Source: Halobellus captivus
Lineage (GTDB): Archaea; Halobacteriota; Halobacteria; Halobacteriales; Haloferacaceae
Length of the DNA: 64,000 nucleotides
Assembly: GCF_003697845.1 (NCBI RefSeq)
Contig: NZ_RDQE01000001.1
Coordinates: 1-64,000, forward strand
Direction: 5' to 3'
A program made the position numbers and the translations under genes. Of the stretch, positions 9,986-34,231 are shown piece by piece; position 1 is the stretch's first letter; each line of letters starts with the position of its first letter. The notes below the pieces were generated by a model, which saw nothing but the letters and a program-made list of their open reading frames with translations, ran no database searches and had not been told where the DNA came from.

Positions 9986-10378
9986 ATGTGTGTACTCGCG
10001 GCGGACGGTATCGGTCAACGACTCCCGACGGTGAAGCGAGGTATTGTGAAGCTGGGATTGATGCTGGTGTCGGTGGTGATGTTGAGTACGCCGGCGGCTG
10101 CTGCTCACGACAATCTGCCGTGTACGGTACCCGAATCACTGACCCCGTTGTTCGATCTGCTCGATACGCTCACACAGCTTGCGTTCCTCGGCGGAGTCGG
10201 GCTTGGAACGGTCGGCCTGCTGGTCGCGGCGTTGTTCATGATGTTGCCCGGTGAGGACTCCACTCGTCGCGGGAAACAGATTGCAAAGCACGTCTTGGTC
10301 GGGACGGTCCTGTTGCTCAGCGCCCAGATGATCATCTCGTTCCTCGTCAGCCAGCTCGGCACCACGATCTGTACCTAA
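9986..10378 (+). CDS. VirB2/TrbC-like pilin subunit
   Basis: A 130-residue protein with a long basic N-terminus and a signal segment ending near STPAAAAHD, one of two cysteines at CTVPES, and two further hydrophobic helices (LTQLAFLGGVGLGTVGLLVAA and VLVGTVLLLSAQMIISFLV) separated by a short basic loop. This size and two-helix hairpin layout after a long leader matches VirB2/TrbC conjugative pilins, and the next genes encode VirB6-like and VirB4-like proteins. The start is fixed by the strong Shine-Dalgarno. It probably forms an extracellular conjugative filament. Confidence 0.65.
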   Translation: MCVLAADGIGQRLPTVKRGIVKLGLMLVSVVMLSTPAAAAHDNLPCTVPESLTPLFDLLDTLTQLAFLGGVGLGTVGLLVAALFMMLPGEDSTRRGKQIAKHVLVGTVLLLSAQMIISFLVSQLGTTICT

Positions 10379-13988: not shown

Positions 13989-14321
13989 ATGTCTGAGAAC
14001 ACCATCACCATCAAGAACTCATCGATCGGCAACACCATCATCTACGAAGGATCAACGGTCATCGACAACCGGACGTTCGTGGCAGTACAGCTCAACGAAA
14101 CAGATCAAACGGAGACGCCATCGGAGACTGCGAAAAAGGACAGGGTACCCCCGTCTGAAATGCAGGAACCAAGCGGTGAAGAGGTGTCGGCCCGGGACAT
14201 CATCGATATTCCGAGTACGGTTGTCGACGACGGAAACCCAGATCAACCTGACCAGGCAGACCTCCCTGTACCAGCGGACGAAAAGGAAGACTCGGACGTT
14301 CTGGAGGTGTTCGACCTATGA
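13989..14321 (+). CDS. Hypothetical acidic protein in the conjugation operon
   Basis: A 110-residue protein. The N-terminal 35 residues are beta-prone (ITIKNSSIGNTIIYEG) and the rest is disordered and rich in Asp/Glu/Pro. It follows the VirB4 gene by two bases and overlaps the next gene by ATGA. It may be an accessory linker or regulator of the secretion module. No family recognised. Confidence 0.55.
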   Translation: MSENTITIKNSSIGNTIIYEGSTVIDNRTFVAVQLNETDQTETPSETAKKDRVPPSEMQEPSGEEVSARDIIDIPSTVVDDGNPDQPDQADLPVPADEKEDSDVLEVFDL

Positions 14322-15289
14322 TCCGCGACAGGCTCTTCACATCGGCGGTTGAACTCGACGAGGATCAGGCCCGGTATCTTCGTGCGGGCAGTGGCGGCCA
14401 GGCAGTCGAAGTGCATCCACCGCGGGCACAATCTATCTCCGCTACACTCAATCAGTTTACCAAGACGATCTATGAGCCCCAGACCAAGTGGTTCGGAGTC
14501 AAGAATACGTCACCGGTCGCCGCATTCGAGATCCGACGGACGGTCCCTGACCAGGTCTCGATGCAGTTCATCGTCCCGACGAAACGGTTGGAGCGGAAGG
14601 TACGGACACAGCTGGAAAATGAGGTGCCGGGTGTCGGGTTCAGTGACGGGACACTGCAGCTGCCTATCTCGGAGGGATGTACTGTCGGTGGTGGCTTGTT
14701 GGAACCGGGATGTCGTGATTGGTATCCCTTAGAGACCGGGTTCAACTCACCGCCGAATAACAGTGTTCTCTCGGCGCTGCACCGACACGCTATGCAAAAC
14801 TCCCAGTTCGTCATCCAGATCCTGTTCCAGCCGGTGGTCGGTCGCCCGGTACGGTCGTGGTGGTGGACGCGACGGGCGTACCAGCGGATCGGGTATCTCC
14901 GCAAGGAGAAAGAGAAACTGTGGGGGAGTCGTTCGGCAACGCCTCGTGAAAAACAGCAGGCCAATGCCGTTGAAGCGAAAGCCGGTAGTCCACGGTTCAA
15001 CGTCTCGATACGGTTCTTGATCGTGAACGGAGGCGAATATACACGAAGCCGGGTGAAGGAACTGAGCGGTGCGTTCAACGTATTCGAGAATCCGGAAACC
15101 GGCCAGTACCTGAACGCGACCACGGTCCAGACCCTCCGGAAACGGTCACTTCTCCGGTTCGTCGATGCTGTCGGACAGCGAGACTTCCAAGGCTGGGGCC
15201 GCCGGTTCCAGGCCACGACCGAGGAACTCGCCAGTCTGATCTCGATCCCGGACATCGACCAACAGAACATCCAGTACAACACTGCGTGA
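14318..15289 (+). CDS. Likely N-terminal region of the coupling protein, encoded separately
   Basis: A 323-residue protein without a P-loop. It has a positional and compositional likeness to the region that precedes the ATPase domain in TraD/HerA-like coupling proteins: two alpha/beta units (SISATLNQFTKTIYEP, QVSMQFIVPTKRLERKV and RFNVSIRFLIVNGGEY) joined by a basic linker (WWWTRRAYQRIGYLRKEKEK). The matching ATPase domain is encoded by the separate gene at 16437-18353, beyond an oppositely oriented insertion. This is inferred from architecture; it might instead be an independent secretion factor. Confidence 0.5.
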   Translation: MIRDRLFTSAVELDEDQARYLRAGSGGQAVEVHPPRAQSISATLNQFTKTIYEPQTKWFGVKNTSPVAAFEIRRTVPDQVSMQFIVPTKRLERKVRTQLENEVPGVGFSDGTLQLPISEGCTVGGGLLEPGCRDWYPLETGFNSPPNNSVLSALHRHAMQNSQFVIQILFQPVVGRPVRSWWWTRRAYQRIGYLRKEKEKLWGSRSATPREKQQANAVEAKAGSPRFNVSIRFLIVNGGEYTRSRVKELSGAFNVFENPETGQYLNATTVQTLRKRSLLRFVDAVGQRDFQGWGRRFQATTEELASLISIPDIDQQNIQYNTA

Positions 15290-16436: not shown

Positions 16437-18353
16437 ATGGACACCGAACAGGTCAAGACGTTGGTGGAGAACAGTGGGGACCTCCGGGAGACGTTCCTCG
16501 GCTTCCAAGAGTCCAGTCTCGGTGTCGAGGAAAACATCCAGGTGCCAGACGACAGCCGCTTCATACATGTCCTGAACGTCGGTCCGACCGGGTACGGGAA
16601 GACCCAGTTGATGATCCATGCCGTCCTGCAGGACGCAGAGAAAGACCACGGGATCTGTGTTGTCAATCCGAAAGGTGGGGCGATCGATGAGATCATCGAG
16701 AAGCTCCCGGAGGACCGGTTAGATGATATCGTCTACATCAATCCAGGCCGGGACAAGGTGACCCCAATCAACGTCTTGGAACCCCACGTCACCGAGGATA
16801 TGACGGAGGCACAGATGGAGAACCAGAAAGAGATCATCATCTCGGATATGATCGATCTGTTCCGCCGGTACAGCGAGAACTGGGGTGACCGGTTCGGCCG
16901 GGTCCTTGAAACCCTGCTTCGTGCCCACATCGATCTCAATATCCGCCACGACCAGTCCAACACCTTACTCGATGTCTTCCGCTGTGTCGTCAACGAGGAC
17001 GCCCTCACCGACCTGATCGATGAGACCGAAGACCAGGTCGTACGGGAACAGCTGGTCCGGGTCAAAGAGGATATGTCCAGTTACGAAATGGAGCCGTTGC
17101 AGCGCCGGCTGAATGACTTCGTGATGAATCCGACCGTTCGGAGGGTGATCGCCGCCGACGAATCCGGCATCGACTTCCGCGACGCCGTCAACGACGGGAA
17201 AATCATCCTGGTCGACATCCAGAAAGGCGAGGTCGGGGACATGGTCGCGAAACTGGTCGGCAGCATCGTGATCACCAAGGTCTGGGCCGCCACCCAGAGC
17301 CGGATCACCATGCCAGAGGACGAACGCGAACCGTTCATGCTGTACTGCGATGAGTTACAGAACTTCTCAGGGGAAGGAAGCAACTTTACGAAGATATTGA
17401 GTGAAGCCCGCGAATATCAGCTTGGGACCTGGCTTGCTACTCAATTTCTCCATCAAATGAGTTCTACAATGCGACGAGCTGTGTCGAACAACTGTAGGAC
17501 CAAGATTTTCTTCAATCCGAGCGGCTCAGAGGATCTCTCCCGGATCACGAATATGCTCAACGGTATCGATAAGGCCACGCTCAAATCACTGGGGAAATTC
17601 CGCGCTGCCATCCAAAAACCAGCGGAAGGCCAACACCATGACGCTGTTATCTTCGATACCTACCCTCCGTGGGAATCGGATAATGACCGGGACCTGGATA
17701 AGATTAAGCGGGACAAGACATTCCCCACTGCGACGGGCGGGGACCACATCGTTGGGCAGAGTCTGGGCCAGGCAGCCAACGCCGGCGGCGACCGCCATCG
17801 CGAGCTCCTGTTGGAGGCGAAGGAATTTCTGGAAGAGACCTTGGAAGCACAGGTGAATCTACTGTATCAAGAGCAGAGCGATGAGAAGCCGGATGGTATT
17901 GTTATGCAGAACAGCTCGATCAGCAACTTAGAAGCAGAGCAGAGTACCTTGACACGGCCGGTCAAAGTTCTCCGTAATGTGCTTCGTGCGGCCCAACAGG
18001 ATCGTGATGTCGTCTTCGCTGTGGAACAGGGGAAAGCAACGAAGCTGAAAAATATCGTTATGGATCCTGTGAATCGACGTGGAGAAATGCACGAAGACGA
18101 GCAGGGATCGTTCAGCTACTATATGGATGAGGAGGGTGAGGCGTTTACCGATGTTGAAGCAGTACATGAGGTAGGATTTCGGATTCTTGAGATCGGAGAT
18201 AATGGCGCTATGTGGCATGATCAGGATCTCGATACAAACTGTCCAGAGATAGAGAATAATGATAGAGAGGCTCTCAAAGACTTCTGCCTATATCGAGATG
18301 AAGATGGCTTCTGTAGCCAATTGGAACAACCGTGTGTGCTTCAATCTGGCTGA
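16437..18353 (+). CDS. VirD4/TraD-like coupling ATPase
   Basis: A 638-residue protein. Walker A GPTGYGKTQ is at about residue 50, directly after a short N-terminus. Other family features are VVNPKGGAIDEI, the PINVLEP segment typical of coupling ATPases, HTH-like helices, Walker B FMLYCDELQNF at about 300, and ATQFLHQMSSTMRRAVSNNCRTKIFF. No transmembrane segment is seen, so it must be recruited by other proteins. It would bring the DNA or protein substrate to the secretion channel. It is separated from the rest of the conjugation operon by an inserted opposite-strand gene. The C-terminal 200 residues are not recognised. Confidence 0.8.
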   Translation: MDTEQVKTLVENSGDLRETFLGFQESSLGVEENIQVPDDSRFIHVLNVGPTGYGKTQLMIHAVLQDAEKDHGICVVNPKGGAIDEIIEKLPEDRLDDIVYINPGRDKVTPINVLEPHVTEDMTEAQMENQKEIIISDMIDLFRRYSENWGDRFGRVLETLLRAHIDLNIRHDQSNTLLDVFRCVVNEDALTDLIDETEDQVVREQLVRVKEDMSSYEMEPLQRRLNDFVMNPTVRRVIAADESGIDFRDAVNDGKIILVDIQKGEVGDMVAKLVGSIVITKVWAATQSRITMPEDEREPFMLYCDELQNFSGEGSNFTKILSEAREYQLGTWLATQFLHQMSSTMRRAVSNNCRTKIFFNPSGSEDLSRITNMLNGIDKATLKSLGKFRAAIQKPAEGQHHDAVIFDTYPPWESDNDRDLDKIKRDKTFPTATGGDHIVGQSLGQAANAGGDRHRELLLEAKEFLEETLEAQVNLLYQEQSDEKPDGIVMQNSSISNLEAEQSTLTRPVKVLRNVLRAAQQDRDVVFAVEQGKATKLKNIVMDPVNRRGEMHEDEQGSFSYYMDEEGEAFTDVEAVHEVGFRILEIGDNGAMWHDQDLDTNCPEIENNDREALKDFCLYRDEDGFCSQLEQPCVLQSG

Positions 18354-20160: not shown

Positions 20161-20213
20161 CTTATCCAGCACCACGCCGTATCCACACAGCAAGGAAAGC
20201 TGGAGGTACAAGC

Positions 20214-20477
20214 ATGACCACGATCCATCTCTCTCAGACCGAACGCTACGTCCTCACCCAGATCCACGACGGCAACCACACCATCGAGGACCTCATCACC
20301 GCGACCGGGTTCCCACGCCCACGGCTTCGCACCTACCTCACCTGGCTGGCACACGACGACTTCATCGAGGTCACCCGGACAGACGGACCGGGAAGTGAAC
20401 TCCACATTGACCTGACCGACCGGGGAATCGAACGCTGCACCCAGCCTGACAGCCGCCACCCACTCACCTATGTCTAA
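20214..20477 (+). CDS. Small winged-helix protein
   Basis: An 87-residue MarR-like winged helix: LSQTERYVLTQIHDGNHTIEDLITATGFPRPRLRTYLTWLAHDDFIEVTR followed by a beta wing. A GGAGGTAC Shine-Dalgarno precedes the ATG. It overlaps the next regulator gene by eight bases; the two form an operon and share the same helix pattern, as if duplicated. It probably binds DNA as a local regulator. Confidence 0.7.
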   Translation: MTTIHLSQTERYVLTQIHDGNHTIEDLITATGFPRPRLRTYLTWLAHDDFIEVTRTDGPGSELHIDLTDRGIERCTQPDSRHPLTYV

Positions 20478-20886
20478 CACCGAGGAACCACTCCGTGAGA
20501 AAGACCGTGCCGTCCTTGCATGCATCCGGGACGGGGACAACGACGTCCAACAGATCAAGGCAGCAACCACCCTGAGCAAACGCGAGGTCAACTACAGCTT
20601 CGAGAAACTCGAGGATCTAGACTTCATCGAGGTGTCCCGGCCCGATGGTCAGGTTGAACGCATCATCGACGGCCAGAAACGCGTGTTCGATACACCAAAA
20701 GAAGCCACACTCACCGAACAGGCAATCCAGTACCTCCAAGCCGCGAACCAGGACAGCAACCGGTACCAAAATCTCTCACGGGACGAATTAGTGGACAAGA
20801 TCCACGACCTCGAGGCACGGATCGATCGATTAGAGAACGGGTTCGAGAGCTTCCGGCAACAGGTGCTTCAGAAATTGGATGGGTGA
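20470..20886 (+). CDS. Winged-helix regulator with C-terminal coiled coil
   Basis: A 138-residue protein. Residues 8-60 form a winged helix closely similar in layout to the preceding gene (REKDRAVLACIRDGDNDVQQIKAATTLSKREVNYSFEKLEDLDFIEVSR). Residues 95-135 form a coiled coil (LVDKIHDLEARIDRLENGFESF) for dimerisation. This architecture is common in haloarchaeal plasmids and viruses. Its end overlaps the convergent repeat-protein gene by 19 bases. Confidence 0.7.
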   Translation: MSNTEEPLREKDRAVLACIRDGDNDVQQIKAATTLSKREVNYSFEKLEDLDFIEVSRPDGQVERIIDGQKRVFDTPKEATLTEQAIQYLQAANQDSNRYQNLSRDELVDKIHDLEARIDRLENGFESFRQQVLQKLDG

Positions 20887-21455
20887 GCGCTGTCTTTGCC
20901 GAGTCCTGCTTTCTTCACTGCCTCACTCCATGACCCGAAGCGACGGACATAGGTGGCAAGTGACGGATACCCCTCGGCATCATCCAATTTAGAGCTTGTG
21001 AGAGGACCATCTGTTTCCTCAGCAAGTTCCTGAAGCTTCGCTAAGAGTTCCTCATCAGAATAGGACTGGTTATGTTTCGTGTCAGCCTCAATCCCGGCGG
21101 CCTCTTTCGCCTGGTTCCATGACCCAAAATGCCGGCGGAACGCCATCCGTGACGGGACATCCCCTGACCCATCGACATCCCCGCGTGTGACAGGACCATC
21201 AACGCGTTCATCAAGATCCTGCAGAAGCTCGATCAACTCCGCATCAGTATACATCTCATCCCGGCCCACCTTGTTGTAGGTCTTAAGCCTAGCAGCCTCC
21301 TTCGCCTCATTCCAGGAATCGAAACACCTGAGGACCTGGTAGACTGACGGAGACTCATCACTATCCTTCAAATCTTGTAGCGTCGGGGATCGACCCAGTT
21401 CATCGGCTAGATCCTGTAACTGCCTGATGATCTCATCTCGTCCCTCTACGGTCAA
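20868..21455 (-). CDS. Stand-alone homing-endonuclease-associated repeat protein
   Basis: A 195-residue protein built from three copies of a ~55-residue unit, each with an N-terminal helix (LIELLQDLDERVDGP type) and a C-terminal FDSWNEAKEAA / FGSWNQAKEAAG / FGSWSEAVKKAG signature. This is the DNA-binding repeat found in HNH homing endonucleases, here with no nuclease domain. The neighbouring gene at 18835-20160 has the same unit fused to a nuclease. It could be a sequence-specific DNA-binding protein, an antagonist of the nuclease, or a remnant. Confidence 0.75.
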   Translation of the reverse strand: MTVEGRDEIIRQLQDLADELGRSPTLQDLKDSDESPSVYQVLRCFDSWNEAKEAARLKTYNKVGRDEMYTDAELIELLQDLDERVDGPVTRGDVDGSGDVPSRMAFRRHFGSWNQAKEAAGIEADTKHNQSYSDEELLAKLQELAEETDGPLTSSKLDDAEGYPSLATYVRRFGSWSEAVKKAGLGKDSAHPSNF

Positions 21456-21500: not shown

Positions 21501-21546
21501 AAAGGAAAAAAGAACGGGACCGCGCCCACGACGGGGCGGGGTCCCG
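21501..21546 (-). terminator. Strong hairpin terminator of the S-layer gene
   Basis: Downstream of the S-layer gene on the minus strand, arms CGGGACC and GGTCCCG (21515-21521 and 21540-21546) with further GC pairing inside are followed by TTCTTTTTTCC. This looks like an intrinsic terminator suited to a highly expressed gene. Confidence 0.6.
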
Positions 21547-21574: not shown

Positions 21575-24529
21575 TTATCGGGGTGCTTCCTGGCTGGACG
21601 GACTGTACTGCATGCCTGCATCTGCGAGGGTGTCCTGATGGGACCTCCACTCGGAGACGTAGCGGGCAGCAGCACGGGTGTCGTCGGCGGAGTGACCCGC
21701 GACGATCATGGCGTGCTGGCCGTCGGCGAAGGCATCCTCAACGACCTGGAGGAGTGCCTCATCGACGTGCTCGTTACGCCACTGATCGGTGGTCCATGTC
21801 TCACCGTCGTCAGCGAGATCGCTGACCAGGGTGTTGACCGCAGGACCGCCGACGAGGATCAGGTGGCTGTTCTGCCTGTCACTGGACGTGACCTGATCGT
21901 CGGTCTTCGCCAGATCCGGCAGAGCACCACGGATGTCCTCGTTCGTGACACCAGTGTAGGTGACCTCACCGGAACCAGTACCGGAACCGCCACCCATCGA
22001 CAGTTCGCCGCCAGAGCCAGTGAAGGCTGCGCCAGCGACTGCCTGCTGGTTCGGGACGTGCAGGGTGAACGAGCCCTGATCCTCATCGTCCTTCATGACG
22101 TGTGCACCGTAGACATCGTAGTCTGCGGTCACACTGTCATCGGAGTCGAGGGTGGTTCCACCGAACGTGGAAGCACGGTCCCAGAGGATGGCCTGTGAGC
22201 CACCGACCTCGACCCAGTCGTCAGAGTCGTCGACACCAGGAACGACGTTGTAAGCCGCCTCGGCGTCGCCGGAGCCAGTCTCGTGCTCAGGCTCGATGAC
22301 CATCGCACCAGAGGAAGTCAGCTCGCTACCCGAGTTCTCAGGAGCGACATCGACTGAGAAGGCTGCCTCGTCGCTCGTCGTCGAGTCGGTGTCGTCGCTG
22401 TGGTCGTCAAGATTGACTGAGACCCTGTAGCTGAGTGCACCAACATCGACGACTGTTTCGGAGACAACGTCCTCGCCTTCGTTGCTGTCAGTGGCTGCAG
22501 TGCTGGTGTCGTTGTACCAGGTGCCACCAACGTTGATGTCGACCTGATCGGCAGTACCGTCGTCGTAAATGACGACTTGGGCCGTCTGAGTTCCGGTGGA
22601 TTCCGTGCTCGGGAAGACAAGTTCTTTGTCGAGGGCACGGGCATCGTTTTCAGCAACTGCCACGTCAGCGTCGATGACTTCATCGACGTCGTCGTGGAGT
22701 GCGATTGATGCACCACTGTCGGTGTCGACTGCCGGGTAGACGGATGCCATGTTACCGACATCATACCCGGACTCACTGACACTGGAACCAGCGTCCCAGA
22801 CAACCTGGACCTCATCTGTTCCACCGTCAACGCGGAACTTGTAGGTCTGGCCGTCGATGACCTCTGTCCCAGTGAAGAAGGTGTCGTCGCTGTCGTCGTT
22901 GCCGTCACCAGTTCCGGTTTCGGTCACTTCGACCTCGACGTTGGCACCGGTGACAACATCCTGCAGATCGACGGTACCTTCTTCTGCTGTACCGCTGTCA
23001 CTGTCAGATGCGTCAACGCCAGTGACTTCCCACATGTGATCGAAGTCCCCAGCATCGCTGAAGAAGTACTCATCTTCAGCAACGGAAGCACCCTCGTAGA
23101 CCATGATGGAATGATCATCACTGTCAGCGAGAGCGTCGTCGACAGCACCGTCGCCTCCTGTGGCGTCGTCGTACCACCATTCGATGGTCGCGTCGTTGTC
23201 GCCGTCAGTGAAGTCGACTGTAACGGTCTCGTCACCGTCGTTGTCGAACATCACTTCGCCGACCTGATCGCCTGCACCTTCGCCTGCATCAGGTGCGAGC
23301 CCACCGAGGTGGAAACGGAGCTCTGTGAAGATGGGATCTTCGAACGTCCCACCAGATTCGACGTAGTTGTTGTCGCTGTCGTCAGCACCGACACCGATCT
23401 CGACCGAGGAAACCTCGACCTTGTTGTTGTTGTTCAGCGTCTCCGTGGAACCTGACTCGACGCCGTCACCAGTCAGCTTGACGTAGGTGCCTTCGATGTC
23501 GTCGCCGTCGCTGTCCTGGACGGGCTGACCGTCTTCAAGACGGTACTCCTCGGAACCGATACTGAAGGTCACAAGACCCTCTGAGTTCTGACTGTTGGTC
23601 AGGATGACGTCATCAATCCGGACGTCAGTACCGCCAACGTTGACTGTCTGTCCTTCGGTCTTCTCCTGCAGACTGCCGTCAACGTAGAACGCGACGGTGT
23701 CACTAGCAGTGACCGCTCGGACTTCCAGTGTGTGCGTCTCGCCATCGACATCGATCTCGGTGGATTCACCGGTCTCGAGGTCGTACTCCTCGCTGGAACC
23801 GTAAAGGATGAGCTGATCGTTGCCGGTGAAGCTGTCGGACGAGATTGTGAAGGTCTGTCCGAACATGTCGATTTCTTCACCAAGCACGTCATCGTTGCCA
23901 TCGCTGTCGCCATCATCCTCAGTCCCACTCGGGTCAAGGAGCAGTCCTTCACCGAAGTTAGCCTGCAGCTTGTACAGGCCGCCGGTGACAGATGACGGGT
24001 TCGCAGGGTTGTCGACGTACAGGAACGGATCGACATTCGACTCGGACGCAGTGCCGAACTTGATCTGCTGGCCCTGCGTATAGAGGAAGTGCTCGACATC
24101 CTGATCGTTGCCAGCTGCATCCTGGAACTCTGTCGTAGCCAGCATGTCCAGATGCTCCTCTGTCAGGGTCTGCCGGACGGTGTCGATAGTGTCCCCGAAG
24201 TAGAGATTGTCGTTCCGGGTATCCAGCGTCTGACCATCGGATGCTGACCATCCGACTGAACCGCCTGATGTCTCGACGTCGACTGTTTCTGTCTGTTCTG
24301 AAGTTTGAATTGTAGCTTGTCCGAGTGCTGCAGCGACGTTGACAGCTCCGACGACGTCGGAGACTGCACCCTGAGATCCGACGACGACCTGGGCAGTAGG
24401 TGCCCCGTCGTCACCGACGAACATGCCAGGGAACTCGCTCAGTGACTGAGCTGCTCCCATGGTCATGCCGACCATCAGGGTCGATGCTGCTACAGCACCA
24501 ACCTTCTTGATTGAGTCTTTCACATTCAT
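21575..24529 (-). CDS. S-layer protein of the methanogen/Thermococcus/DPANN type
   Basis: A 984-residue exported protein. Residues 1-28 are a signal peptide (VGAVAASTLMVGMTMGAA), followed by FPGMFV and VVVGSQGAVSDVVGAVNVAAALG, the conserved start of the S_layer_N family. The middle is acidic, beta-rich and Thr/Asp-rich. The C-terminus (LILVGGPAVNTLV at about 890, IVAGHSADDTRAAARYV at about 942) is the conserved S_layer_C unit. It has no C-terminal transmembrane anchor and no PGF-CTERM signal, unlike haloarchaeal S-layer glycoproteins. It might coat the host cell, or particles/vesicles made by the element. It is monocistronic, with a long leader and its own terminator. Confidence 0.85.
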   Translation of the reverse strand: MNVKDSIKKVGAVAASTLMVGMTMGAAQSLSEFPGMFVGDDGAPTAQVVVGSQGAVSDVVGAVNVAAALGQATIQTSEQTETVDVETSGGSVGWSASDGQTLDTRNDNLYFGDTIDTVRQTLTEEHLDMLATTEFQDAAGNDQDVEHFLYTQGQQIKFGTASESNVDPFLYVDNPANPSSVTGGLYKLQANFGEGLLLDPSGTEDDGDSDGNDDVLGEEIDMFGQTFTISSDSFTGNDQLILYGSSEEYDLETGESTEIDVDGETHTLEVRAVTASDTVAFYVDGSLQEKTEGQTVNVGGTDVRIDDVILTNSQNSEGLVTFSIGSEEYRLEDGQPVQDSDGDDIEGTYVKLTGDGVESGSTETLNNNNKVEVSSVEIGVGADDSDNNYVESGGTFEDPIFTELRFHLGGLAPDAGEGAGDQVGEVMFDNDGDETVTVDFTDGDNDATIEWWYDDATGGDGAVDDALADSDDHSIMVYEGASVAEDEYFFSDAGDFDHMWEVTGVDASDSDSGTAEEGTVDLQDVVTGANVEVEVTETGTGDGNDDSDDTFFTGTEVIDGQTYKFRVDGGTDEVQVVWDAGSSVSESGYDVGNMASVYPAVDTDSGASIALHDDVDEVIDADVAVAENDARALDKELVFPSTESTGTQTAQVVIYDDGTADQVDINVGGTWYNDTSTAATDSNEGEDVVSETVVDVGALSYRVSVNLDDHSDDTDSTTSDEAAFSVDVAPENSGSELTSSGAMVIEPEHETGSGDAEAAYNVVPGVDDSDDWVEVGGSQAILWDRASTFGGTTLDSDDSVTADYDVYGAHVMKDDEDQGSFTLHVPNQQAVAGAAFTGSGGELSMGGGSGTGSGEVTYTGVTNEDIRGALPDLAKTDDQVTSSDRQNSHLILVGGPAVNTLVSDLADDGETWTTDQWRNEHVDEALLQVVEDAFADGQHAMIVAGHSADDTRAAARYVSEWRSHQDTLADAGMQYSPSSQEAPR

Positions 24530-24812
24530 TGTGCTTGTTCACCTGTTGGTTCCCAAAACGTACTTGGGAGGGGGTTCGGAGTGGTCGTAGAGGGAAAAAG
24601 AGGGGTCCGGGAAGTGGTTGCCCGTGTCTCCCGTTCCTTTACGTGGGAAGGTGGTGTGCCTGTGGCTCCTGCCTTCCTTGTTCTAATTACGGGGGAGGTG
24701 GGGCGGTTGCCCGGACCGGTCCTCGTTGACCGGTCTCCGAATCTGGCCATACGGGGTGTGGCCGTATGGCCGTAAGACTATCCTCCTATTGGCCCAAAGC
24801 CCTTTTAATAGG
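24530..24812 (-). promoter_or_regulatory. Promoter and long structured leader of the S-layer gene
   Basis: On the minus strand a TATA-like box (CTATTAAAAGG) lies at 24801-24812. About 250 bases of leader would follow before the ATG, which has AGGTGA as Shine-Dalgarno. The leader contains a hairpin with perfect 8-base arms GGCCATAC / GTATGGCC (24746-24753 and 24765-24772). A leader this long is unusual for a haloarchaeal gene and suggests control of mRNA stability or translation. No gene was seen from here to 25041. Confidence 0.45.
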
Positions 24813-25229: not shown

Positions 25230-27995
25230 ATGAAGGAAGCTCTGGAACAGTCTCTTGAGGATTCGTTCGATTTCACCGCGTTCCAACGTCTTACTGGGAC
25301 GCAGGATGCGATCACGGACGAGACGGGGAAGATTCTCTACGTGCCGACTGACCTCCCGGTCCCGTTCGATAAACGGGTACTCAGTGCCATCGTGGACAGT
25401 GACGATGTCCGTGTCCTGTCGATGCCGGTCGATGAATGGGAGTTCCAGGAGACGATCTACACCGGTATCGAGTACCTCGTGGACAACGACGGGGACGGGA
25501 CTGTCGTGTTCTTCTGCCCTCGATCCCTCGTTGACAGCATTCAGGATATCCCCGGTACAGCGTTCGTCCATTTTGACCGCGTCCAGCTGGATGACACGAC
25601 CAGGACCATCCGTGATGCCTTCGAACGTGGGGCCGGCACCGAACCACGGCCGAGCACCATCGATGACCTTGCCGAGTTCACGTTGCGGGCTTTCACCGCG
25701 GCAGCAACGGGTGCTGAACTCAGTCCGACACACATCCAGACCAGTACTGATGACCGATTGGACGAGTTCTACATTCCCTATGATACCCTTCCGTCGGTCC
25801 CGACAGCTGTCCGTGAGTTCTTCCTCGACAGCGTCGGAATTCCCAATACTGAGTTGTTCGACAGCCTCGACCCAGCGGCCCAACAGAACGTCTACACGAC
25901 CCGGCTCCTGGCCAGGTATGGCGACAGATTCGCCCAAAACGAACCCAAATACCATGTAGCAGCCGAAATCCAAGGGCTCGACCCAGAGCTTCAGCACCTG
26001 TACCGAACCCTTGTCATCAAATGGCTGGCCCAGCGACGGCTGTTCGATTCCACCCTGACCGAACTTGCCACAACAGCGTTGGACCGGGACGTCATCGATA
26101 CCATCCAAGCAAGCTACCAACAGATCACCGGCCAGGACACGGCAGTCAACATCCAAGAACCGGGCCACGCCGCAGAAACCCTGACCCAGCACTTCGGCAT
26201 CCTGTTCCACACCGTCGACGAAGACGAGTTCACCAACCTCGTCAACACGGTACGGGACCAACTGTCGAGTGACAGCCAGCAAATCGAGGACTACGGACCG
26301 GACCAGGCCCTCAACACTGTCGAGAAAGTCGATACCCTGCTCAACCTCCTCGCTGAGGTCGCACTTATCAAACACCCCCGTTTCGTCAACGCAGCGTTCC
26401 CAAAAGACCGCTGGACGGACATCTTCGAACAGTTCATCCATGTCGCCTATGAGAACGATCGGGAGGATCTGCTCGACTACCGTTACCTGACAGCACTGAA
26501 CCAGGCACGCAAGCAGGAACTCCGTGAACGCGAAGCCGAAGACCTTGCAGAGGACATCCGCACACTGGAGGTGGACTTAGACACGCTGCCCGACTTCCTC
26601 GACCAGTGGACCTCGTTCCTCGCAGACACGCGGGAGGACGAACCGGTCTCGGATCTCCTGCAACAAGAGCTGATCGACAAGTACGACAGCTACTGTGCTG
26701 AACTCGTTGACCGGTACGACGACATCGTCACCGACGACAACTGGCTACACCTCTCCGATCTGCTCACGGAACCAGATGATGACAGGGTCAAATTCACCGT
26801 CATCCTCGACAGCGTCGGATACACCGACTACCTGCTCCTCAACCAGTTCGGCTTCCTGACCACAGAACCTGATAGCGTCGACCTCGCGTTCTCCAACATG
26901 CCGTCGTACACGCCTTCCGCTATCTCGACCATCCTCACCGGACTTCCTGCCGAAGCCACCGGTATCTACAGCTGGCAACCCCGCCGCGGTGACGACATAT
27001 TCGTTCTCCAGCACAGCAGCTACGATCCCGACGCCTTCGACTTCATCGAGGAACGTACCGAGAACGATTTCCACCTCATCCAGCGCCCGCAGCTCAATTC
27101 CTCTGGAATTTCCCGGTTCGCTGACCAGGTCGCCGATATCCGATTCTCCTCTGACCTCACTATCGAAGCCGATCACTTGGACGCGGTCCGGAACGGGTTC
27201 GTGGACGAAGTCGAGAGCACGTTGAACGAACGGCACCACGTCCTGAACAACGACGATGTAGACCCAGAAGCACGGGCAGCACAACGGTCCCACATCGTTC
27301 TCTACCTGGAGGACTTCGACAAGATCCTCCACGAGATGCTCTCGTTCGCAGAGTTCGAGAACTACTACAACACGCTCGGCAACTTCCTCGATGCCCTCCT
27401 GGAAGACCTGCGAGAAGCTACAACGATCATTGAGAACCCGGTTGACATCGAGGTCATCTCAGACCACGGGAAACTCACCCGCTACGAGATGGAAATGATT
27501 CTCAACGAACGCCCTGAACATGAATTCACCCAACAGATGCTGACAGAGACCGTCGCGCTCCAGCACGCCTACCGCATCAATTTCCGCGACGCCGAGTTCA
27601 CGAACCGAACCGACCTCCAATTCGTTACCGTGGCCACCGACGACAGCGACCCACCAGTAGACCGAATCCGTGCACTTCTCACCGAGGAGGATGCTGACGG
27701 CGTCAGTGACGATACACTCAGGGACGTGACTGAGAAAGTTGAGTATCTCCAGTCAGGCTCCAAATTCGTCTACGGCTGGCGTACAGACAGCGATGCCACT
27801 TCGATCAGTGGCCTCCATCAATTCGACGGCGTTGATACCCACCAGCCACGCGGTGACGGTATCTTCGACCTGCCTGATGTCGGACTACTCTCCCGGTACG
27901 ATATCAAAAACAGGAGTGGCCACGACCACGGCTACCACGGCGGGACCTCGATCAGCGAGATGGCCGCCCTCCGCCTTACATATCAAGACGCCTGA
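25230..27995 (+). CDS. PglZ-domain protein
   Basis: A 921-residue protein. The N-terminal half is helical and acidic with no recognised domain. The C-terminal half is a PglZ (alkaline-phosphatase-like) domain: metal-site motif VILDSVGYTDYLLL at about 526, SNMPSYTPSAISTILTGLP at about 555 (nucleophile region), EVISDHGKLTR at about 740 and DHGYHGGTSISEMA at about 897. PglZ proteins are constant members of BREX and Pgl phage defence systems. It is the first gene of a five-gene operon (25230-34170), with only 9 bases before the next gene. The exact catalytic competence needs structural alignment. Confidence 0.85.
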   Translation: MKEALEQSLEDSFDFTAFQRLTGTQDAITDETGKILYVPTDLPVPFDKRVLSAIVDSDDVRVLSMPVDEWEFQETIYTGIEYLVDNDGDGTVVFFCPRSLVDSIQDIPGTAFVHFDRVQLDDTTRTIRDAFERGAGTEPRPSTIDDLAEFTLRAFTAAATGAELSPTHIQTSTDDRLDEFYIPYDTLPSVPTAVREFFLDSVGIPNTELFDSLDPAAQQNVYTTRLLARYGDRFAQNEPKYHVAAEIQGLDPELQHLYRTLVIKWLAQRRLFDSTLTELATTALDRDVIDTIQASYQQITGQDTAVNIQEPGHAAETLTQHFGILFHTVDEDEFTNLVNTVRDQLSSDSQQIEDYGPDQALNTVEKVDTLLNLLAEVALIKHPRFVNAAFPKDRWTDIFEQFIHVAYENDREDLLDYRYLTALNQARKQELREREAEDLAEDIRTLEVDLDTLPDFLDQWTSFLADTREDEPVSDLLQQELIDKYDSYCAELVDRYDDIVTDDNWLHLSDLLTEPDDDRVKFTVILDSVGYTDYLLLNQFGFLTTEPDSVDLAFSNMPSYTPSAISTILTGLPAEATGIYSWQPRRGDDIFVLQHSSYDPDAFDFIEERTENDFHLIQRPQLNSSGISRFADQVADIRFSSDLTIEADHLDAVRNGFVDEVESTLNERHHVLNNDDVDPEARAAQRSHIVLYLEDFDKILHEMLSFAEFENYYNTLGNFLDALLEDLREATTIIENPVDIEVISDHGKLTRYEMEMILNERPEHEFTQQMLTETVALQHAYRINFRDAEFTNRTDLQFVTVATDDSDPPVDRIRALLTEEDADGVSDDTLRDVTEKVEYLQSGSKFVYGWRTDSDATSISGLHQFDGVDTHQPRGDGIFDLPDVGLLSRYDIKNRSGHDHGYHGGTSISEMAALRLTYQDA

Positions 27996-28004
27996 CTACC
28001 AGCT

Positions 28005-28763
28005 ATGCCAAAGACTATCCCCCGGATCGGCCGGCAAGACCTGCTCAAGGGTATCGAAAAGCTCGCCCAGATCGTCCACTTCCGCGGCGAGCTCACCGAA
28101 GACGAACTCCGCGACGAAATGAAGGCGATCAACCGCGACAGAGATTCCAAACTGTTCAAATCGATCGATGGCTGGCTCACGTTCACCCTGCAAGACGAGA
28201 ACCGGTCCATTGAGATCCTCAAACAGGACAACGACCACATCGAACTCACCGACGAAGGGTTAGAACTTCTGAACGCCCCTGACTTCCGTGTGGCCGCATT
28301 CCACCTGTTAGAACGTAAATCACGGACCAATTTCACCTACTTCCACACACTCCTCCAGGAACTTGACCGGAAGGTCCAGGCCGGCAACTACGACATGGGG
28401 ACCGATCTCGCTGACACCGTCAACACATTGATGAAAGACACTGTCAGCGGGAACAAGGTGACTGCTGGAGCAATAGCGTGTTTCCTCCGTGACTTCGAGA
28501 TCGCGGTCGAAAACGACGGTGAATGGCAACTTGACCCCGCCCAGTACACCTACTTCAGAGGCGAGGATGAAGACATCGTCGAGGACATCATCGCGGAACA
28601 CGGCAACCGCATGGACCGTGCAGAGTTGGAACGATTGCTCACATTGGATTTCAAGTGGACCGGGGAACAAGTCGATACTATCATACAACAATTACAGGAC
28701 CAGAATCGGGTGGCAACGGACCGCTACGAAGGCAAAACCGTGGTTGAACTGGTCACGACCTAA
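28005..28763 (+). CDS. Winged-helix-like component of the PglZ operon
   Basis: A 252-residue protein, acidic and mainly helical. Its N-terminal part (LLKGIEKLAQIVHFRGELTEDELRDEMKAI) and C-terminal part (RAELERLLTLDFKWTGEQVDTIIQQLQDQNRV) resemble paired winged-helix modules. It lies between pglZ and a small gene, where BREX systems have their small brxA/brxB-type proteins, but no direct match to these was made. Probably a DNA-binding or adaptor subunit. Confidence 0.6.
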   Translation: MPKTIPRIGRQDLLKGIEKLAQIVHFRGELTEDELRDEMKAINRDRDSKLFKSIDGWLTFTLQDENRSIEILKQDNDHIELTDEGLELLNAPDFRVAAFHLLERKSRTNFTYFHTLLQELDRKVQAGNYDMGTDLADTVNTLMKDTVSGNKVTAGAIACFLRDFEIAVENDGEWQLDPAQYTYFRGEDEDIVEDIIAEHGNRMDRAELERLLTLDFKWTGEQVDTIIQQLQDQNRVATDRYEGKTVVELVTT

Positions 28764-28766
28764 CAT

Positions 28767-29087
28767 ATGAGCATCGTCCGCAACGCCTTAGACCACTTGG
28801 ACCGGGCCGGCAACGATATCGCTATCGTCGGGATCGACGATGTTCACACCGAGTACGACACCGTCTTCGAATTCACCACGGAGGTTCAAAGACGCACCCC
28901 GAACACGGACTACGACATCGAGTTTCTCCGTCCACGCGACCGTGATGAGGGCAGTGGCGATAAGATCATTCTGATGTCGAATCCTGCCCGTATCACGGAG
29001 CACAACGTGTTAGATACAAGGATTTACATCGTCGAGCAGACAAACGACCTGAAACGCAAACTCATCAAATACCGGATCAATACATGA
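28767..29087 (+). CDS. Small protein of the PglZ operon
   Basis: A 106-residue protein, alpha/beta in pattern (NDIAIVGIDDVHTEYD, KIILMSNPARITEH, TRIYIVEQTNDLKRK). It starts three bases after the preceding gene and overlaps the large ATPase gene by ATGA, so it is expected to be made in step with it. No family recognised. Confidence 0.6.
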   Translation: MSIVRNALDHLDRAGNDIAIVGIDDVHTEYDTVFEFTTEVQRRTPNTDYDIEFLRPRDRDEGSGDKIILMSNPARITEHNVLDTRIYIVEQTNDLKRKLIKYRINT

Positions 29088-32000
29088 CAGTGGAGGAAGC
29101 CAAAGAGGACGTCGTCAACATCCTCGACCGACAGACGATCAAACGCGTCCGACGCGAGTGCGAACGACTGGCCCGAGAAAAGGACCTCCCCGAGTTCGAA
29201 GCATTCCTCGAGGAAGGCACCCACTTCATCCTCACCGACAAACGGGCCGATATCCTGCACGGCGTCCACGACGGGTTAGCCAGCCAGGACAGTCCCGGTG
29301 TCATCCTCCACGGAGCCTACGGCTCCGGGAAGACCGTGATGATGGAAAACATCGAACTTCTCTGTGACTCAAGTCAGGAGTTCGGGGGCCACGAGTTCAA
29401 CCAGCTCCAGTACGGGGAGACACCCATCGACTGCATCACGATCAGCCTCGAACAGAACGATACTCCGACCGATTTCCTCTTTGCTATCTTTCAATCCTTG
29501 GTCGACCACAGTGACAGCGTCGGCACGGACGACCTTATCGCCATCTTCAACGACCGGAAGATCAACCTGACAATCGAAGACCTCGACGACACACTGCCCT
29601 CCAGCCAGCGCGAGGACCTCATCGACCGGTTCGAGGATCCAGCCTCCTTAGAGGATATCGCCCGCGTCAGTAAATCCCTGACCGCCGGCGACGCCCACAA
29701 ACCCATCACCTGGTTCACCACGTACTACCGGGAACGAGAAGACCGGTACCCCGCCCTGTACATCGACGAGTTCGAGCAACTCTTCCGCCAAGGCGTGGAT
29801 CCGGGCGGCACCTACCGCCTCAAGGCCATCATCCAGAAAATGATCCGGAATGCCGTCTCCGGCTTTGACGATCTCGATGCCCCGCCTTACATCCTGTTTG
29901 CGAACACGCTCTCCCTCGACGAGCTCACGGACCGGTTCAGTGCAGAACGGGACCTGATCGACCGCATTACTGAAAGCGTCAGCTACAACATCGATCTCTC
30001 AGAGGACGAGACAAAGGAACTGTTCGCCAAACTCTACCGCCTCTACGTTATTCCGCTTCTCGCTGACCGCGACGGCGATGTCCAAGCGTGGTACGACACT
30101 ATCGTGTCTGCGGACCGTGGTGATGATGGCTACGTCTACCCCTTCACTGAGGACACGCTCGATTTCGCCCTAAGCATCGTCCAGAAGTTCGAAGACGAAA
30201 CACAGGGTGAAACCGTCGTCCGTGCTTTCCGTGACTACAAACGTATCCTGATTGCGTTCCTCGACCACTGGGATGGTGAGGGCCGTATCGACCTGGACTT
30301 CCTGTACCAACACGGCGACGCTGTCCGCGAACAGCTCCGGGGTCAGGTCGAACGAGTCAATCTCGATGAACTCCCTGGTGAAGGCAGCATCGAAGCCACC
30401 ATCGAGGCAGACTACGATACCGCCACAACGATCGACCGCCGTATCCTCCGCCAAGTCGCCAAGGTCGGTATCCTTGAGAAAGAGGAACGACCGGTCTACT
30501 TCACTGCTGAAGAAATCGCCGACATCGCAGGCACCATCGAACTTCAGATCAGTGAGGACGAAGCTGAGGACCTGATCAGTCGTGCTGCCAACGGACCCGA
30601 CTATTTCGACGAGGAAGAGGGCCGGCTCGAATTCGATCCGAACGAACTGACCGGGACAGCAGTTGGTGGCGGCGAACTCTCCCTTGCTGACCAGGTGGGC
30701 GAGGCCATCGAAGATCTCGACTTGGAGGACAAGAACCTGGTACAGCTCTGGGCAGCGATGCGGGAGCACCGCTTCCCCGACACCTCCTTCGAGAACCAGC
30801 AGAACCAGTTCCTCGTCTTCGATACGGAAGGCGACCTCAACTACACGTCCAATGTCTACTTCACTGTCGCCCCGGATGAGCTGCCGGAACAGCTCCAGGC
30901 CGAGGTCGATGATGAGGCACTGAACATCGTCATCCGGTTCGGGCGGGCGACCGACGGTGACCTCCCGGCACGGTTCTACGTCACGGAACGGAACGGCCGG
31001 GCAGCCGACATCACGGACGCGATAGAGACAAGTCTCAATCAGGAACTGGAAACTCATTTCGACGAGGACAGCGGCTACTATGACCTTATCGAAGCCATCC
31101 AGGAGAACAACCCTCGGTTCGATGATGCGTATGAAGCCTACGTGATGTTTCTGAAGCTCTCCCTTGCATCGCTGGCAGGGGAGGACCTCCCTGAGGATGT
31201 TGGTGTGCGGACCGCTGACCAGACCAGCTTCTCGATCATCCAGACAGTCGACAGGAGCGTCACAAACATCGCCGGGGGCTATCCCCGGACCAAACTCGGG
31301 TTCAACGAAGCCTACACCGGCAAGAACTATCTCAACCTCGTCTACGGGATCAAACACTTAGATCTTGAAGACGACCTCATCTTTGCCAACCCCAACCACC
31401 CTCGGATCGATGTCCGGTCGTTCGGCCGTGTCAGTCGGTCACGGGAGGCCGGTGACGAGTTCCGCGATATCGTCAGTTCGTTCGCGGAGCATGAATCGTT
31501 CATCCAGGAACGGGACACTGGTGAGTACGACATCGTTCCCCAGTTTAGTAGTTACAGCTCTGTGCTGGACACGATCGAATCTCACCTTGATGACGACGGG
31601 CTTGACTTCGATGAGATACTTGAGCTGATCTTCGGGACCACCGAGGTCGAAAACGTTACCAAGGCGATGGTCTACCTGCTTTTGATCCTTGGCCAGTACT
31701 GGGACGATTACAGCTGGGTCTTCGAGGACGACAGTGAGACGACCATCATTCCCGCTGATGTCCGGATCGAAACACAGCGTGACCAGACGCGGCGTAAGAT
31801 CGGGCGGGCCATCGAGATTGAAATCCTGGACCAGGCGAAACAGGACACGCCTGACAGCGATCCGGTGGAAGCGCTCAAGGACAAGTACGACAGTGTGGAG
31901 GATGCCGATGCGACGGAGCTGGATGAGCTCCAAGGTGAGGTCGATGCTGACTGGGACTTCGACTTCCAGACCGTGGATGAGTCACTCCGTGAGATCGTTG

Positions 32001-32932
32001 CGAACGATGTGTTTGCTGATACGGAGGTGGCGACGTATGCGAACACGGTCCGACCGCTCGGATCGATCGATCCCGAGCTCCGCTACCTGATCCTTGACGA
32101 CCTGGACCACGTCGTCACTCAGGTGAAAAAAGCAGCGACAGTGCTGGAAAAACAAGAGGATCTAGAACACCTCACCACGAAGCTGGACTGGTTCGGTATC
32201 GATCCCGATCTCCAGTCTGAGGACCTGGACATCGAGTGCATCACCACGATCGAGGAGTTCTGGGAGACCCACCAGGTTGAACGGAACATCGAGGATGCAG
32301 CAGTTGGTGATGACCTTGACGGGTATCTCGACGGTGATATCCAGCTCTCTCGGTTGTTCGAGATGCTCCAAAGCAGGCGAAAAAGCATCGTCCCCCAGGT
32401 CGAGACCTACGACGCTGAAGACGACAAAGACGCCTTGGATGATGACTTGGAGTACGTCAAAGGCGAGCTGACCGACGCCATCGAGGAGGAACAGGAGACG
32501 GTGTCGGCAGCACAAGACGAGTTAGCAGAGTACCGTGACCGGATCCCCGGTGAGTCCAGCTGGCTGCGGCGCGGCCAAACCTATCTGGACAACTGCGAGA
32601 CCGAGTTGGAGAGTTCGCCTGCCCAGTTCGACCACGACCAGTACGGGGACTACTGGGAGCAGTGGGAAACAGCCCGCACCAACCTGGAAGAAGAGGCATT
32701 CGGTGAAGACGAGTTCGAAGAAACCGTCCGGAAATACGATCCTGATATCGAGATAGACGTGGTCGAAGACGCTACCGAGGACGGCCTCTCGGACAGGTTC
32801 ACCGAACTGGATGACGATGAGTTCCAGCAGGTAATCGACGGATTACGCGGATCGACAACGGCTGCCGAGGAACTAAAGCAGTCCCTGCTGAAGATACGTG
32901 TGAAAGCTGAACTCACTGGTGACGAATCATGA
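29084..32932 (+). CDS. Large AAA ATPase, BrxC/PglY-like
   Basis: A 1282-residue protein. Walker A GAYGSGKTVMMENIELL is at about residue 77 and Walker B PALYIDEFEQLF at about 224, followed by NTLSLDELTDRF and a helical AAA lid. The remaining 900 residues are acidic and mostly helical. This size and layout fits the BrxC/PglY class of large defence ATPases (often DUF499/DUF6079-related). It overlaps both neighbours (ATGA type), so it is built with the HerA-like ATPase. It would be the motor or sensor of the system. Confidence 0.75.
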   Translation: MTVEEAKEDVVNILDRQTIKRVRRECERLAREKDLPEFEAFLEEGTHFILTDKRADILHGVHDGLASQDSPGVILHGAYGSGKTVMMENIELLCDSSQEFGGHEFNQLQYGETPIDCITISLEQNDTPTDFLFAIFQSLVDHSDSVGTDDLIAIFNDRKINLTIEDLDDTLPSSQREDLIDRFEDPASLEDIARVSKSLTAGDAHKPITWFTTYYREREDRYPALYIDEFEQLFRQGVDPGGTYRLKAIIQKMIRNAVSGFDDLDAPPYILFANTLSLDELTDRFSAERDLIDRITESVSYNIDLSEDETKELFAKLYRLYVIPLLADRDGDVQAWYDTIVSADRGDDGYVYPFTEDTLDFALSIVQKFEDETQGETVVRAFRDYKRILIAFLDHWDGEGRIDLDFLYQHGDAVREQLRGQVERVNLDELPGEGSIEATIEADYDTATTIDRRILRQVAKVGILEKEERPVYFTAEEIADIAGTIELQISEDEAEDLISRAANGPDYFDEEEGRLEFDPNELTGTAVGGGELSLADQVGEAIEDLDLEDKNLVQLWAAMREHRFPDTSFENQQNQFLVFDTEGDLNYTSNVYFTVAPDELPEQLQAEVDDEALNIVIRFGRATDGDLPARFYVTERNGRAADITDAIETSLNQELETHFDEDSGYYDLIEAIQENNPRFDDAYEAYVMFLKLSLASLAGEDLPEDVGVRTADQTSFSIIQTVDRSVTNIAGGYPRTKLGFNEAYTGKNYLNLVYGIKHLDLEDDLIFANPNHPRIDVRSFGRVSRSREAGDEFRDIVSSFAEHESFIQERDTGEYDIVPQFSSYSSVLDTIESHLDDDGLDFDEILELIFGTTEVENVTKAMVYLLLILGQYWDDYSWVFEDDSETTIIPADVRIETQRDQTRRKIGRAIEIEILDQAKQDTPDSDPVEALKDKYDSVEDADATELDELQGEVDADWDFDFQTVDESLREIVANDVFADTEVATYANTVRPLGSIDPELRYLILDDLDHVVTQVKKAATVLEKQEDLEHLTTKLDWFGIDPDLQSEDLDIECITTIEEFWETHQVERNIEDAAVGDDLDGYLDGDIQLSRLFEMLQSRRKSIVPQVETYDAEDDKDALDDDLEYVKGELTDAIEEEQETVSAAQDELAEYRDRIPGESSWLRRGQTYLDNCETELESSPAQFDHDQYGDYWEQWETARTNLEEEAFGEDEFEETVRKYDPDIEIDVVEDATEDGLSDRFTELDDDEFQQVIDGLRGSTTAAEELKQSLLKIRVKAELTGDES

Positions 32933-34170
32933 TTATTGGCGGGGACAAAGAAGAGTTATCAGCCTATCTTGGCCGCAAGTTCGACAGTACCGATGAGCTC
33001 GGTGAACAGGTCCGCCTCGACCTCAACGAACCCCATATGGTCACCGTCTGTGGGAAACGCGGCTCCGGGAAGTCCCATACCCTCGGTGTGATGATGGAGG
33101 AACTGATGACCCTGCCCGCCCAGGCTCGACAGAACCTGAACGGCTTGGTCATCGACGCTATGGGCATCTACTGGAGTCTCCAGGTCCAAACACCAGACAC
33201 CGACCTGCTTGATGGCTGGGATATCTCTCCCAGAGAGTACCCGGTCAAAGTCTACTACCCCGCCGGCCTCGAAGAGCAGTACGAAGAGATCCAGCAGTAC
33301 TTCCACGAAGGATTCGAGCTGTACCCCTCGGAACTCTCTGTTGAGGACTGGCTTTACCTGCTCGACATCGATGAAACCCAGGCACAGGCCGGGTTGCTCT
33401 CACAGGTCATCGAACAGGCAGAGGAGGACTTCGGCCAGTACTACAGCATCATGGATCTCCTCGATAAGGTCGAAGCCTCTCCTGAGTCCGCTAACATCAA
33501 AGACGCCCTTCACCGCCGCTTGGAGAAGGCTAAAAACTGGGGTATCTTCAGCTCCTCCGGCTCGAAGATCGAAGAAATCGTCGAGGGCGGGGAATTCGTC
33601 GTCCTCGACCTCTCCGGTGCCGGTGCCCTCCCCTGGAACGTCCGCACCATGCTTACCGGCATCCTCGTCAAGAAGATGTACAACAAGCGGAGCTTCGACC
33701 GCAGCCGGGAAGAAGTCAAGAAAATCAAAGGCGAACACACCGAAGTCAACTTCCCCCTGGTCTGGCTGTTCCTCGATGAAGCCCACCTGTTCGCCCCGTC
33801 TGGTCACACCGAACCGAGCACCGCACCCTTGGTCGAATGGGTCCGCCAAGGTCGCCGCCCCGGCCTCTCGCTCGTCATGGCCACCCAACAACCTGGAGCC
33901 CTCGACAACCGGATCCTGTCCCAATGTGACACCCTCATCATTCACCGCCTCACCGCTGGCCAGGACTCCGACGCGGTCGGGGACAAGATTTCTGAACTCC
34001 ACGATGCCCAGACCATCAGCCACTACATGCAACAGATCCCGAAAGCTCCGGGCTATGCCTATGCGATGAACGACGATGCCGAAACCATCGTCCCCGTCAA
34101 GGTCCGCCCCCGCAAGTCGTGGCACGCCGGCGACTCTGCCAAACTCGAAGAATTCCTGGAGAGCCCGTAA
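32929..34170 (+). CDS. HerA-like (DUF87) ATPase of the PglZ operon
   Basis: A 413-residue protein. Walker A CGKRGSGKSHTLGVMMEEL is at about residue 41, Walker B LVWLFLDEAHLFAP at about 280, followed by WVRQGRRPGLSLVMATQQPGAL and LSQCDTLIIHRLTAGQD, all typical of HerA/FtsK-related hexameric DNA translocases. In archaea HerA works with NurA, but no NurA is present here; the PglZ-operon context suggests a defence translocase instead. It is the last gene of the operon. Confidence 0.85.
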   Translation: MIIGGDKEELSAYLGRKFDSTDELGEQVRLDLNEPHMVTVCGKRGSGKSHTLGVMMEELMTLPAQARQNLNGLVIDAMGIYWSLQVQTPDTDLLDGWDISPREYPVKVYYPAGLEEQYEEIQQYFHEGFELYPSELSVEDWLYLLDIDETQAQAGLLSQVIEQAEEDFGQYYSIMDLLDKVEASPESANIKDALHRRLEKAKNWGIFSSSGSKIEEIVEGGEFVVLDLSGAGALPWNVRTMLTGILVKKMYNKRSFDRSREEVKKIKGEHTEVNFPLVWLFLDEAHLFAPSGHTEPSTAPLVEWVRQGRRPGLSLVMATQQPGALDNRILSQCDTLIIHRLTAGQDSDAVGDKISELHDAQTISHYMQQIPKAPGYAYAMNDDAETIVPVKVRPRKSWHAGDSAKLEEFLESP

Positions 34171-34231
34171 CGATCTGATCCTCACGCAACGAGGAGGTCT
34201 TTTTTAATAATCGCTTCTTGGTGTGACCTAT

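Follow-up and report, generated by a model that had tools for sequence, protein, structure and literature searches.

A T4SS-bearing integrative element of Halobacteria probably acquired, as cargo, an S-layer gene that descends from nanohaloarchaea and would encode an alternative surface coat. The gene lies in the window analyzed here, a 64-kb stretch at the start of a 402-kb contig of Halobellus captivus. As the preliminary description of this DNA proposed, the protein is of a non-haloarchaeal type and belongs to a haloarchaeal element. Its family is S_layer_C/S_layer_MJ, and the element is a mobile one with T4SS and integrase genes.

The S-layer gene and its product

21575..24529, minus strand: S-layer protein, 984 aa, S_layer_C/S_layer_MJ family, nanohaloarchaeal type (ORF, Pfam, NCBIfam, alignment, trees)
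24299..24445, minus strand: N-terminal half of a composite anchor domain, codons of residues 29-77 (9FSA match; anchor role, PMC11410804)
21656..21913, minus strand: C-terminal half of the anchor domain, codons of residues 873-958 (9FSA match)

The open reading frame starts with ATG and is intact over its 984 codons. Its product matched a single family in a Pfam scan, S_layer_C (PF05124, 73 bits against a cut-off of 23.9, in two stretches), and a single family in an NCBIfam scan, TIGR01564 S_layer_MJ (63.3 bits, cut-off 25). Both cut-offs are passed and both anchor halves are present, placing the protein in this family. The S_layer_N/S_layer_C architecture first attributed to it is right in outline but does not correspond to the Pfam families, as there is no separate S_layer_N match at E<=1 and the N-terminal stretch aligns to S_layer_C positions 4-55. 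The relative with a solved structure is 9FSA, the S-layer anchor domain of Methanococcus voltae (residues 24-75 and 484-576), described in PMC11410804 as responsible for dimerisation of the anchor; its N and C parts are both matched by sequence, by residues 29-77 and 873-958 of the window protein. 9FSA covers the anchor only, so the comparison excludes the middle region of the window protein, and since an AlphaFold model built on a 5-row alignment reached a pLDDT of 33.6, the anchor fold is predicted from sequence only.

The protein is acidic (pI 4.05, 21% D+E), has no cysteine, and contains a single N-glycosylation sequon. It shares a probable cell-surface role with the haloarchaeal S-layer glycoprotein but differs in having neither the halo_sig_pep signal (no NCBIfam match at E<=1) nor the PGF-CTERM anchor, whose absence had been noted previously and is borne out by the NCBIfam scan (S_layer_MJ being the only match at E<=1) and by the lack of a PGF motif. 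The window gene is the only S_layer_C gene in this genome. On another contig of the host (C4), a 951-aa ORF bears the haloarchaeal surface-glycoprotein signal (halo_sig_pep), so the window protein would be a second coat protein.

Distribution and phylogeny of the S-layer family

In a class-wide search, 3 of 391 haloarchaeal genomes had S_layer_C above the cut-off: this genome, Natronococcus sp. A-GB1, and Halobiforma nitratireducens. Searches of overlapping genome sets gave 1/170 in the family of the window's genome, 2/125 in the Natronococcus family, and 1/97 among the nearest relatives, the one being the window's own genome; none of the other 96, 51 of which are of the same genus, had a match above the cut-off. 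A fourth candidate haloarchaeal carrier (G199) scored below the cut-off with a 114-aa frame and was taken as a chance match. The Natronococcus gene is intact (800 aa), and both anchor halves are conserved in the window and Natronococcus proteins. The Halobiforma gene is truncated and continues into a tyrosine recombinase frame (L009:4200-5200; recombinase named by eye), a junction that may be an insertion scar or an assembly join. Among Nanohaloarchaeota, 26 of 28 genomes have an S_layer_C match; the frame measures 700 aa or longer in at least 13 of these, and some others have only a 260-320 aa paralogue.

The window protein aligns through residues 1-968 with its best match, a protein of the nanohaloarchaeal genome G439 (42%, 995 aligned positions). 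Trees of 25 and 22 rows, the phylogeny that the preliminary description had proposed as a check, place it within the Nanohaloarchaeota S-layer proteins and not among haloarchaeal chromosomal paralogues. The 25-row tree used ORFs of at least 540 aa, leaving out shorter or N-cut S-layer frames and the duplicate loci L075 and L076, with the Halobiforma row trimmed ahead of its recombinase-frame tail. The 22-row tree omits three long-branch rows (L071, L015, and L065_10318) and was rooted on two rows of a Thermococci MAG, an outgroup that is thin because a phylum search around this MAG yielded 1/28, that genome alone. In a 5-row set the window protein again fell inside the nanohaloarchaeal clade (support 97/98). 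The nesting is stable, and the exact sister varies: the long-branch L071 at 87/90 in the 25-row tree, two G439 rows at 90/93 in the 22-row tree. Full-length homology together with this nesting is why we regard the gene as being of nanohaloarchaeal descent. The window protein also resembles the Nanohaloarchaeota proteins in its signal-peptide region, its N and C anchor halves, and its acidic composition; it differs in being encoded on a haloarchaeal integrated element, with a GC3 adjusted to that element.

The Natronococcus and Halobiforma proteins sit elsewhere in the nanohaloarchaeal tree, grouped with Ca. Nanohalalkaliarchaeum at 100/100. Halobiforma is sister to Nanohalalkaliarchaeum (66% identity over 553 positions), with Natronococcus outside both (46% to Nanohalalkaliarchaeum over 811). 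The Nanohalalkaliarchaeum contig resembles the other contigs of its own MAG (tetranucleotide r of 0.93, against at most 0.83 for the other sets compared). Constraining the three haloarchaeal rows to monophyly was rejected (dlnL 454, p-AU 9e-116), as was constraining the 17 nanohaloarchaeal rows to monophyly without the haloarchaeal rows (dlnL 471, p-AU 3e-65). With a single haloarchaeal clade and a haloarchaea-free nanohaloarchaeal clade both rejected, at least two transfers are required, and the earlier suggestion of gene exchange with nanohaloarchaeal partners gains support from both the nesting and the rejected constraints. Vertical inheritance of an old haloarchaeal S-layer paralogue, lost in most lineages, would fit the presence of the gene in three haloarchaeal genera, and we found nothing else in its favor. 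We consider it extremely improbable given the two separate positions within Nanohaloarchaeota, the AU tests under the model used, and the absence of the gene from the 96 other genomes in the search of nearest relatives.

Direction and age of transfer

The data are most simply read as two or more separate entries into haloarchaeal elements from nanohaloarchaea. We favor entry into Halobacteria because the family is wide and deep in nanohaloarchaea and rare in Halobacteria. The opposite course, in which nanohaloarchaea received S-layer genes from haloarchaeal elements, draws on the report that transfer from Halobacteria to nanohaloarchaea is common (47.86% of horizontally acquired genes in NHA21; PMC9765267) and on the position of Halobiforma as sister to Nanohalalkaliarchaeum with Natronococcus outside, which fits this direction for the Halobiforma/Nanohalalkaliarchaeum pair alone. 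The near-universal, deeply branched family in Nanohaloarchaeota and its near absence from Halobacteria make such a reverse transfer highly unlikely.

Third-position GC content bears on the age of the event. The window S-layer gene has a GC3 of 0.674, within the range of the element genes measured (0.55-0.80), compared with 0.92-0.95 for the chromosome and 0.39-0.57 for nanohaloarchaeal S-layer genes. As it fits the element and not the nanohaloarchaeal genes, the transfer would be either not recent or indirect. We found no immediate donor, the best match being the 42% noted above.

Leader, promoter, and terminator

24530..24790, minus strand: probable structured 5' leader, boundaries inferred (fold z -4.4; no Rfam match)
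24799..24808, minus strand: TATA-like box TATTAAAAGG, 279 nt before the ATG (pattern only)
21515..21546, minus strand: hairpin followed by a U-run, possible terminator (not better than shuffles)

A long leader had been proposed for the gene, in agreement with the distance of the TATA-like box from the start codon and with the predicted RNA fold of 24530-24790, which is far more stable than its shuffles (0/200). The leader matches no Rfam family. A dedicated strong terminator had also been proposed. A hairpin and U-run do lie just downstream, but their strength is not upheld, since three terminator-like sites were seen against 2.8 expected and the hairpin fold has a z of -1.4.

Leader DNA of Nanohalalkaliarchaeum can be aligned with that of the Halobiforma and Natronococcus genes, at 82% over 136 nt and 81% over 100 nt, and the window leader has no alignable match to nanohaloarchaeal leaders. 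An upstream motif resembling TGAACGGTT precedes S-layer genes in 10 of 13 pattern matches in ~490 kb, the pattern having been built after viewing these sequences; it is absent from the window promoter. With a matrix trained on nanohaloarchaeal promoters, the top site of the 54.5-kb element (24874) lies 5' of the S-layer gene, facing the opposite way, and the best sites in Natronococcus and Halobiforma are not at the S-layer genes.

The host element

9986..10378, plus strand: VirB2/TrbC-like T4SS pilin (Pfam scan)
10385..11788, plus strand: conserved protein of the transfer operon (comparison with related loci)
11785..13986, plus strand: VirB4-like ATPase (AAA_10, DUF87, weak PrgI; Pfam scan, related loci)
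14318..15289, plus strand: conserved protein of the transfer operon (comparison with related loci)
16437..18353, plus strand: TraG/TraD-like coupling protein (Pfam scan, related loci)
53249..54373, minus strand: tyrosine integrase (Pfam scan; 82-84% identical to the integrases of three related elements, L098, L101, and L102)
54571..54643, minus strand: tRNA-Thr, border of element and chromosome (adjoins the tyrosine integrase)

Judging from its gene content and border, the S-layer gene resides on an integrated conjugative-type element joined to a high-GC chromosome. GC content is ~0.49-0.62 up to ~54 kb and ~0.68-0.70 from ~55 kb onward, and features of an ICE are present in the integrase adjoining a tRNA gene and in the VirB4, coupling protein, and pilin genes. 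The synteny of the transfer operon is kept in all nine related haloarchaeal loci compared (L097-L105, which hold the nine highest-ranking VirB4 matches of the 391 genomes, that of the window left aside), with identities to the window of ~40-48% for VirB4 and 47-65% for TraD. No relaxase family was found in Pfam scans of 40 window proteins, from an element that lacks its left part at the contig start. The first bases of the contig match short haloarchaeal plasmid stretches, one of which has an IS5 family transposase annotation; a break of the contig at an insertion sequence is therefore probable, leaving the left end of the element missing. The Natronococcus contig, over the 37.9 kb compared, does not show the transfer operon of the window; the ICE of the window is therefore not the sole carrier of such genes.

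Integrated mobile elements of Halobacteria that bear fusexins likewise have recombinase, HerA, VirB4, and TraG/D genes (described in PMC9259645), a likeness of gene content alone; the window element has an S-layer gene instead, with no fusexin family among the 40 proteins scanned. The pR1SE-like plasmids, compared by description only, are also haloarchaeal mobile DNA with surface proteins and differ from the window element in that it has a T4SS operon. It had been suggested that the S-layer protein could coat particles produced by the element; these might be vesicles or virus-like particles, in the manner of pR1SE. A mobile element encoding a surface protein is in keeping with this, as is an ORF of pR1SE-like plasmids with weak structural matches to S-layer proteins (PMC10818511). 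We judge a particle coat very unlikely: what the element has is a T4SS operon, the Pfam scans of the 40 window proteins returned T4SS, integration, and defence-like families and no capsid or vesicle-protein family, and searches of phage, plasmid, and IMG/VR records yielded no relative of the S-layer protein (IMG/VR scanned with the protein and with alignment A3).

The cargo slot

20470..20886, plus strand: small conserved protein that directly follows TraD in related elements (related loci)
20868..21455, minus strand: HNH_repeat-only protein directly downstream of the S-layer gene (order and strand identical in Natronococcus)
25230..35356, plus strand: PglZ-like/large ATPase/HerA (mad8-like)/coiled-coil cluster, defence-like cargo (Pfam, PADLOC)

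The homologue of the 20470-20886 gene lies directly 3' of TraD in 9/9 related loci, after which the content differs: Mre11/Rad50/HerA-like, SMC-like, nucleotidyltransferase-like, and large ATPase genes, among others (named by eye). In the window, an HNH endonuclease (18835-20211, in region 18357-20477) is inserted between TraD and this gene, which is followed by the HNH_repeat gene, the S-layer gene, and the 25230-35356 cluster. The cluster comprises a Phosphodiest-family protein by Pfam, which we regard as PglZ-like, a 1282-aa ATPase, a HerA-like ATPase (PADLOC mad8, 76 bits), and a coiled-coil protein. PADLOC made no clean defence-system call on the window, returning just HerA/mad8, MkoA-like, and weak matches; the cluster would be BREX/MADS-like by its gene content. 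From these comparisons, the S-layer gene occupies what is a variable cargo slot, with defence-like genes there in sister elements.

The gene could also be passive cargo, acquired alongside other DNA and, in haloarchaea, either neutral or in decay. Its great rarity among the haloarchaeal genomes searched and the truncated Halobiforma copy running into a recombinase frame are what such a fate would produce. We nevertheless find it rather doubtful, given the intact codons (984 in the window, 800 in Natronococcus) with both anchor halves conserved, the leader retained in Natronococcus and Halobiforma, and the downstream HNH_repeat gene that accompanies the S-layer gene in two different elements.

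Several other genes of the window were noted: a gene for nucleoside diphosphate kinase within the element (1657-2139, minus strand), a DpnII/MboI-type restriction enzyme domain (3006-4043, minus strand; 157 bits), a pair of E2-like and ThiF/E1-like genes (4885-6638, plus strand), and a 1581-aa helicase-like protein with a PADLOC MkoA match of 112 bits and a weak Cas4-like stretch (41712-46457, minus strand). Homologues of the E2-like/ThiF-E1-like pair (28% and 46%) occur in the Natronococcus element, which also has an S-layer gene. Two ORFs of the element family (L101:11945-13045, minus strand; L106:3317-4540, plus strand) have a uL15-like N-terminal part and a long extension, the L106 ORF matching Pfam PF00828 at 34 bits; ribosomal-protein-like cargo is odd.

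A probable element remnant on a nanohaloarchaeal contig

Among the 28 Nanohaloarchaeota genomes, the C-terminal third of the element's TraD has a match in G427 at 56%, and TraD gave a weak match (27%) in G428. The G427 contig also carries a homologue of the 20470-20886 gene, two genes shared with haloarchaeal element loci, one small and antitoxin-like (up to 80-90% identity) and the other RelE-like (up to 60%; both named by eye), and a uL15-like ORF 44% identical to the one in L101. The same contig has the GC content of its MAG and a glutamyl-tRNA synthetase-like gene (named by eye) that is 63-71% identical in 14 of the 27 other nanohaloarchaeal genomes and more distant in the remaining ones that have it. 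A decayed element of the window's family thus appears to sit on a nanohaloarchaeal chromosome, a chimeric contig being possible in a MAG. We found no S-layer gene on this contig; the element family is a candidate vehicle for S-layer gene transfer.

Possible function and significance

In the reading that we prefer, an alternative coat carried as cargo, the S-layer protein would be exported via its signal peptide and dock through the composite N+C anchor module, without a lipid-type PGF-CTERM anchor. Its large middle region would then be displayed as an alternative or patchy coat above the host's own S-layer. The changed surface would meet viruses, symbionts, or mating partners, and may serve to fend off viruses, to hinder the attachment of symbionts, or in mating partner choice. 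Such surface remodelling is suggested by the defence-like cargo slot together with the nature of the protein, and we infer that the gene makes an alternative surface coat altering one or more of these contacts. For Haloferax, a possible effect of S-layer variation on virus sensitivity and mating preference has been discussed (PMC5867893), and Ca. Nha. antarcticus is described as leading a parasitic lifestyle on Hrr. lacusprofundi, with both S-layers gapped at the contact site (PMC11291902).

A bolder and clearly unlikely proposal is that conjugative elements shuttle between haloarchaea and their nanohaloarchaeal ectosymbionts, some carrying the symbiont's coat gene, so that the wearer is masked or immune, or becomes a mating partner across phyla. 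If true, a symbiont S-layer on a haloarchaeon would mean masking from or immunity to the symbiont or to viruses that read the host coat, or mating recognition across phyla.

The published accounts of gene flow between these groups that we consulted, among them PMC9765267, report it from haloarchaea to nanohaloarchaea. The present comparison provides sequence evidence for the direction from nanohaloarchaea to haloarchaea, involving a major surface protein encoded on mobile DNA and at least two events; we found no earlier report of a nanohaloarchaeal S-layer gene on haloarchaeal mobile DNA in open-licence PMC papers. This suggests that coat genes pass from symbionts to the mobile DNA of their hosts' lineage, and, given the element remnant in G427, a direct route linking hosts with their parasite-like symbionts becomes testable. 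It also raises the question of whether a symbiont's coat serves the host as camouflage or for exclusion.
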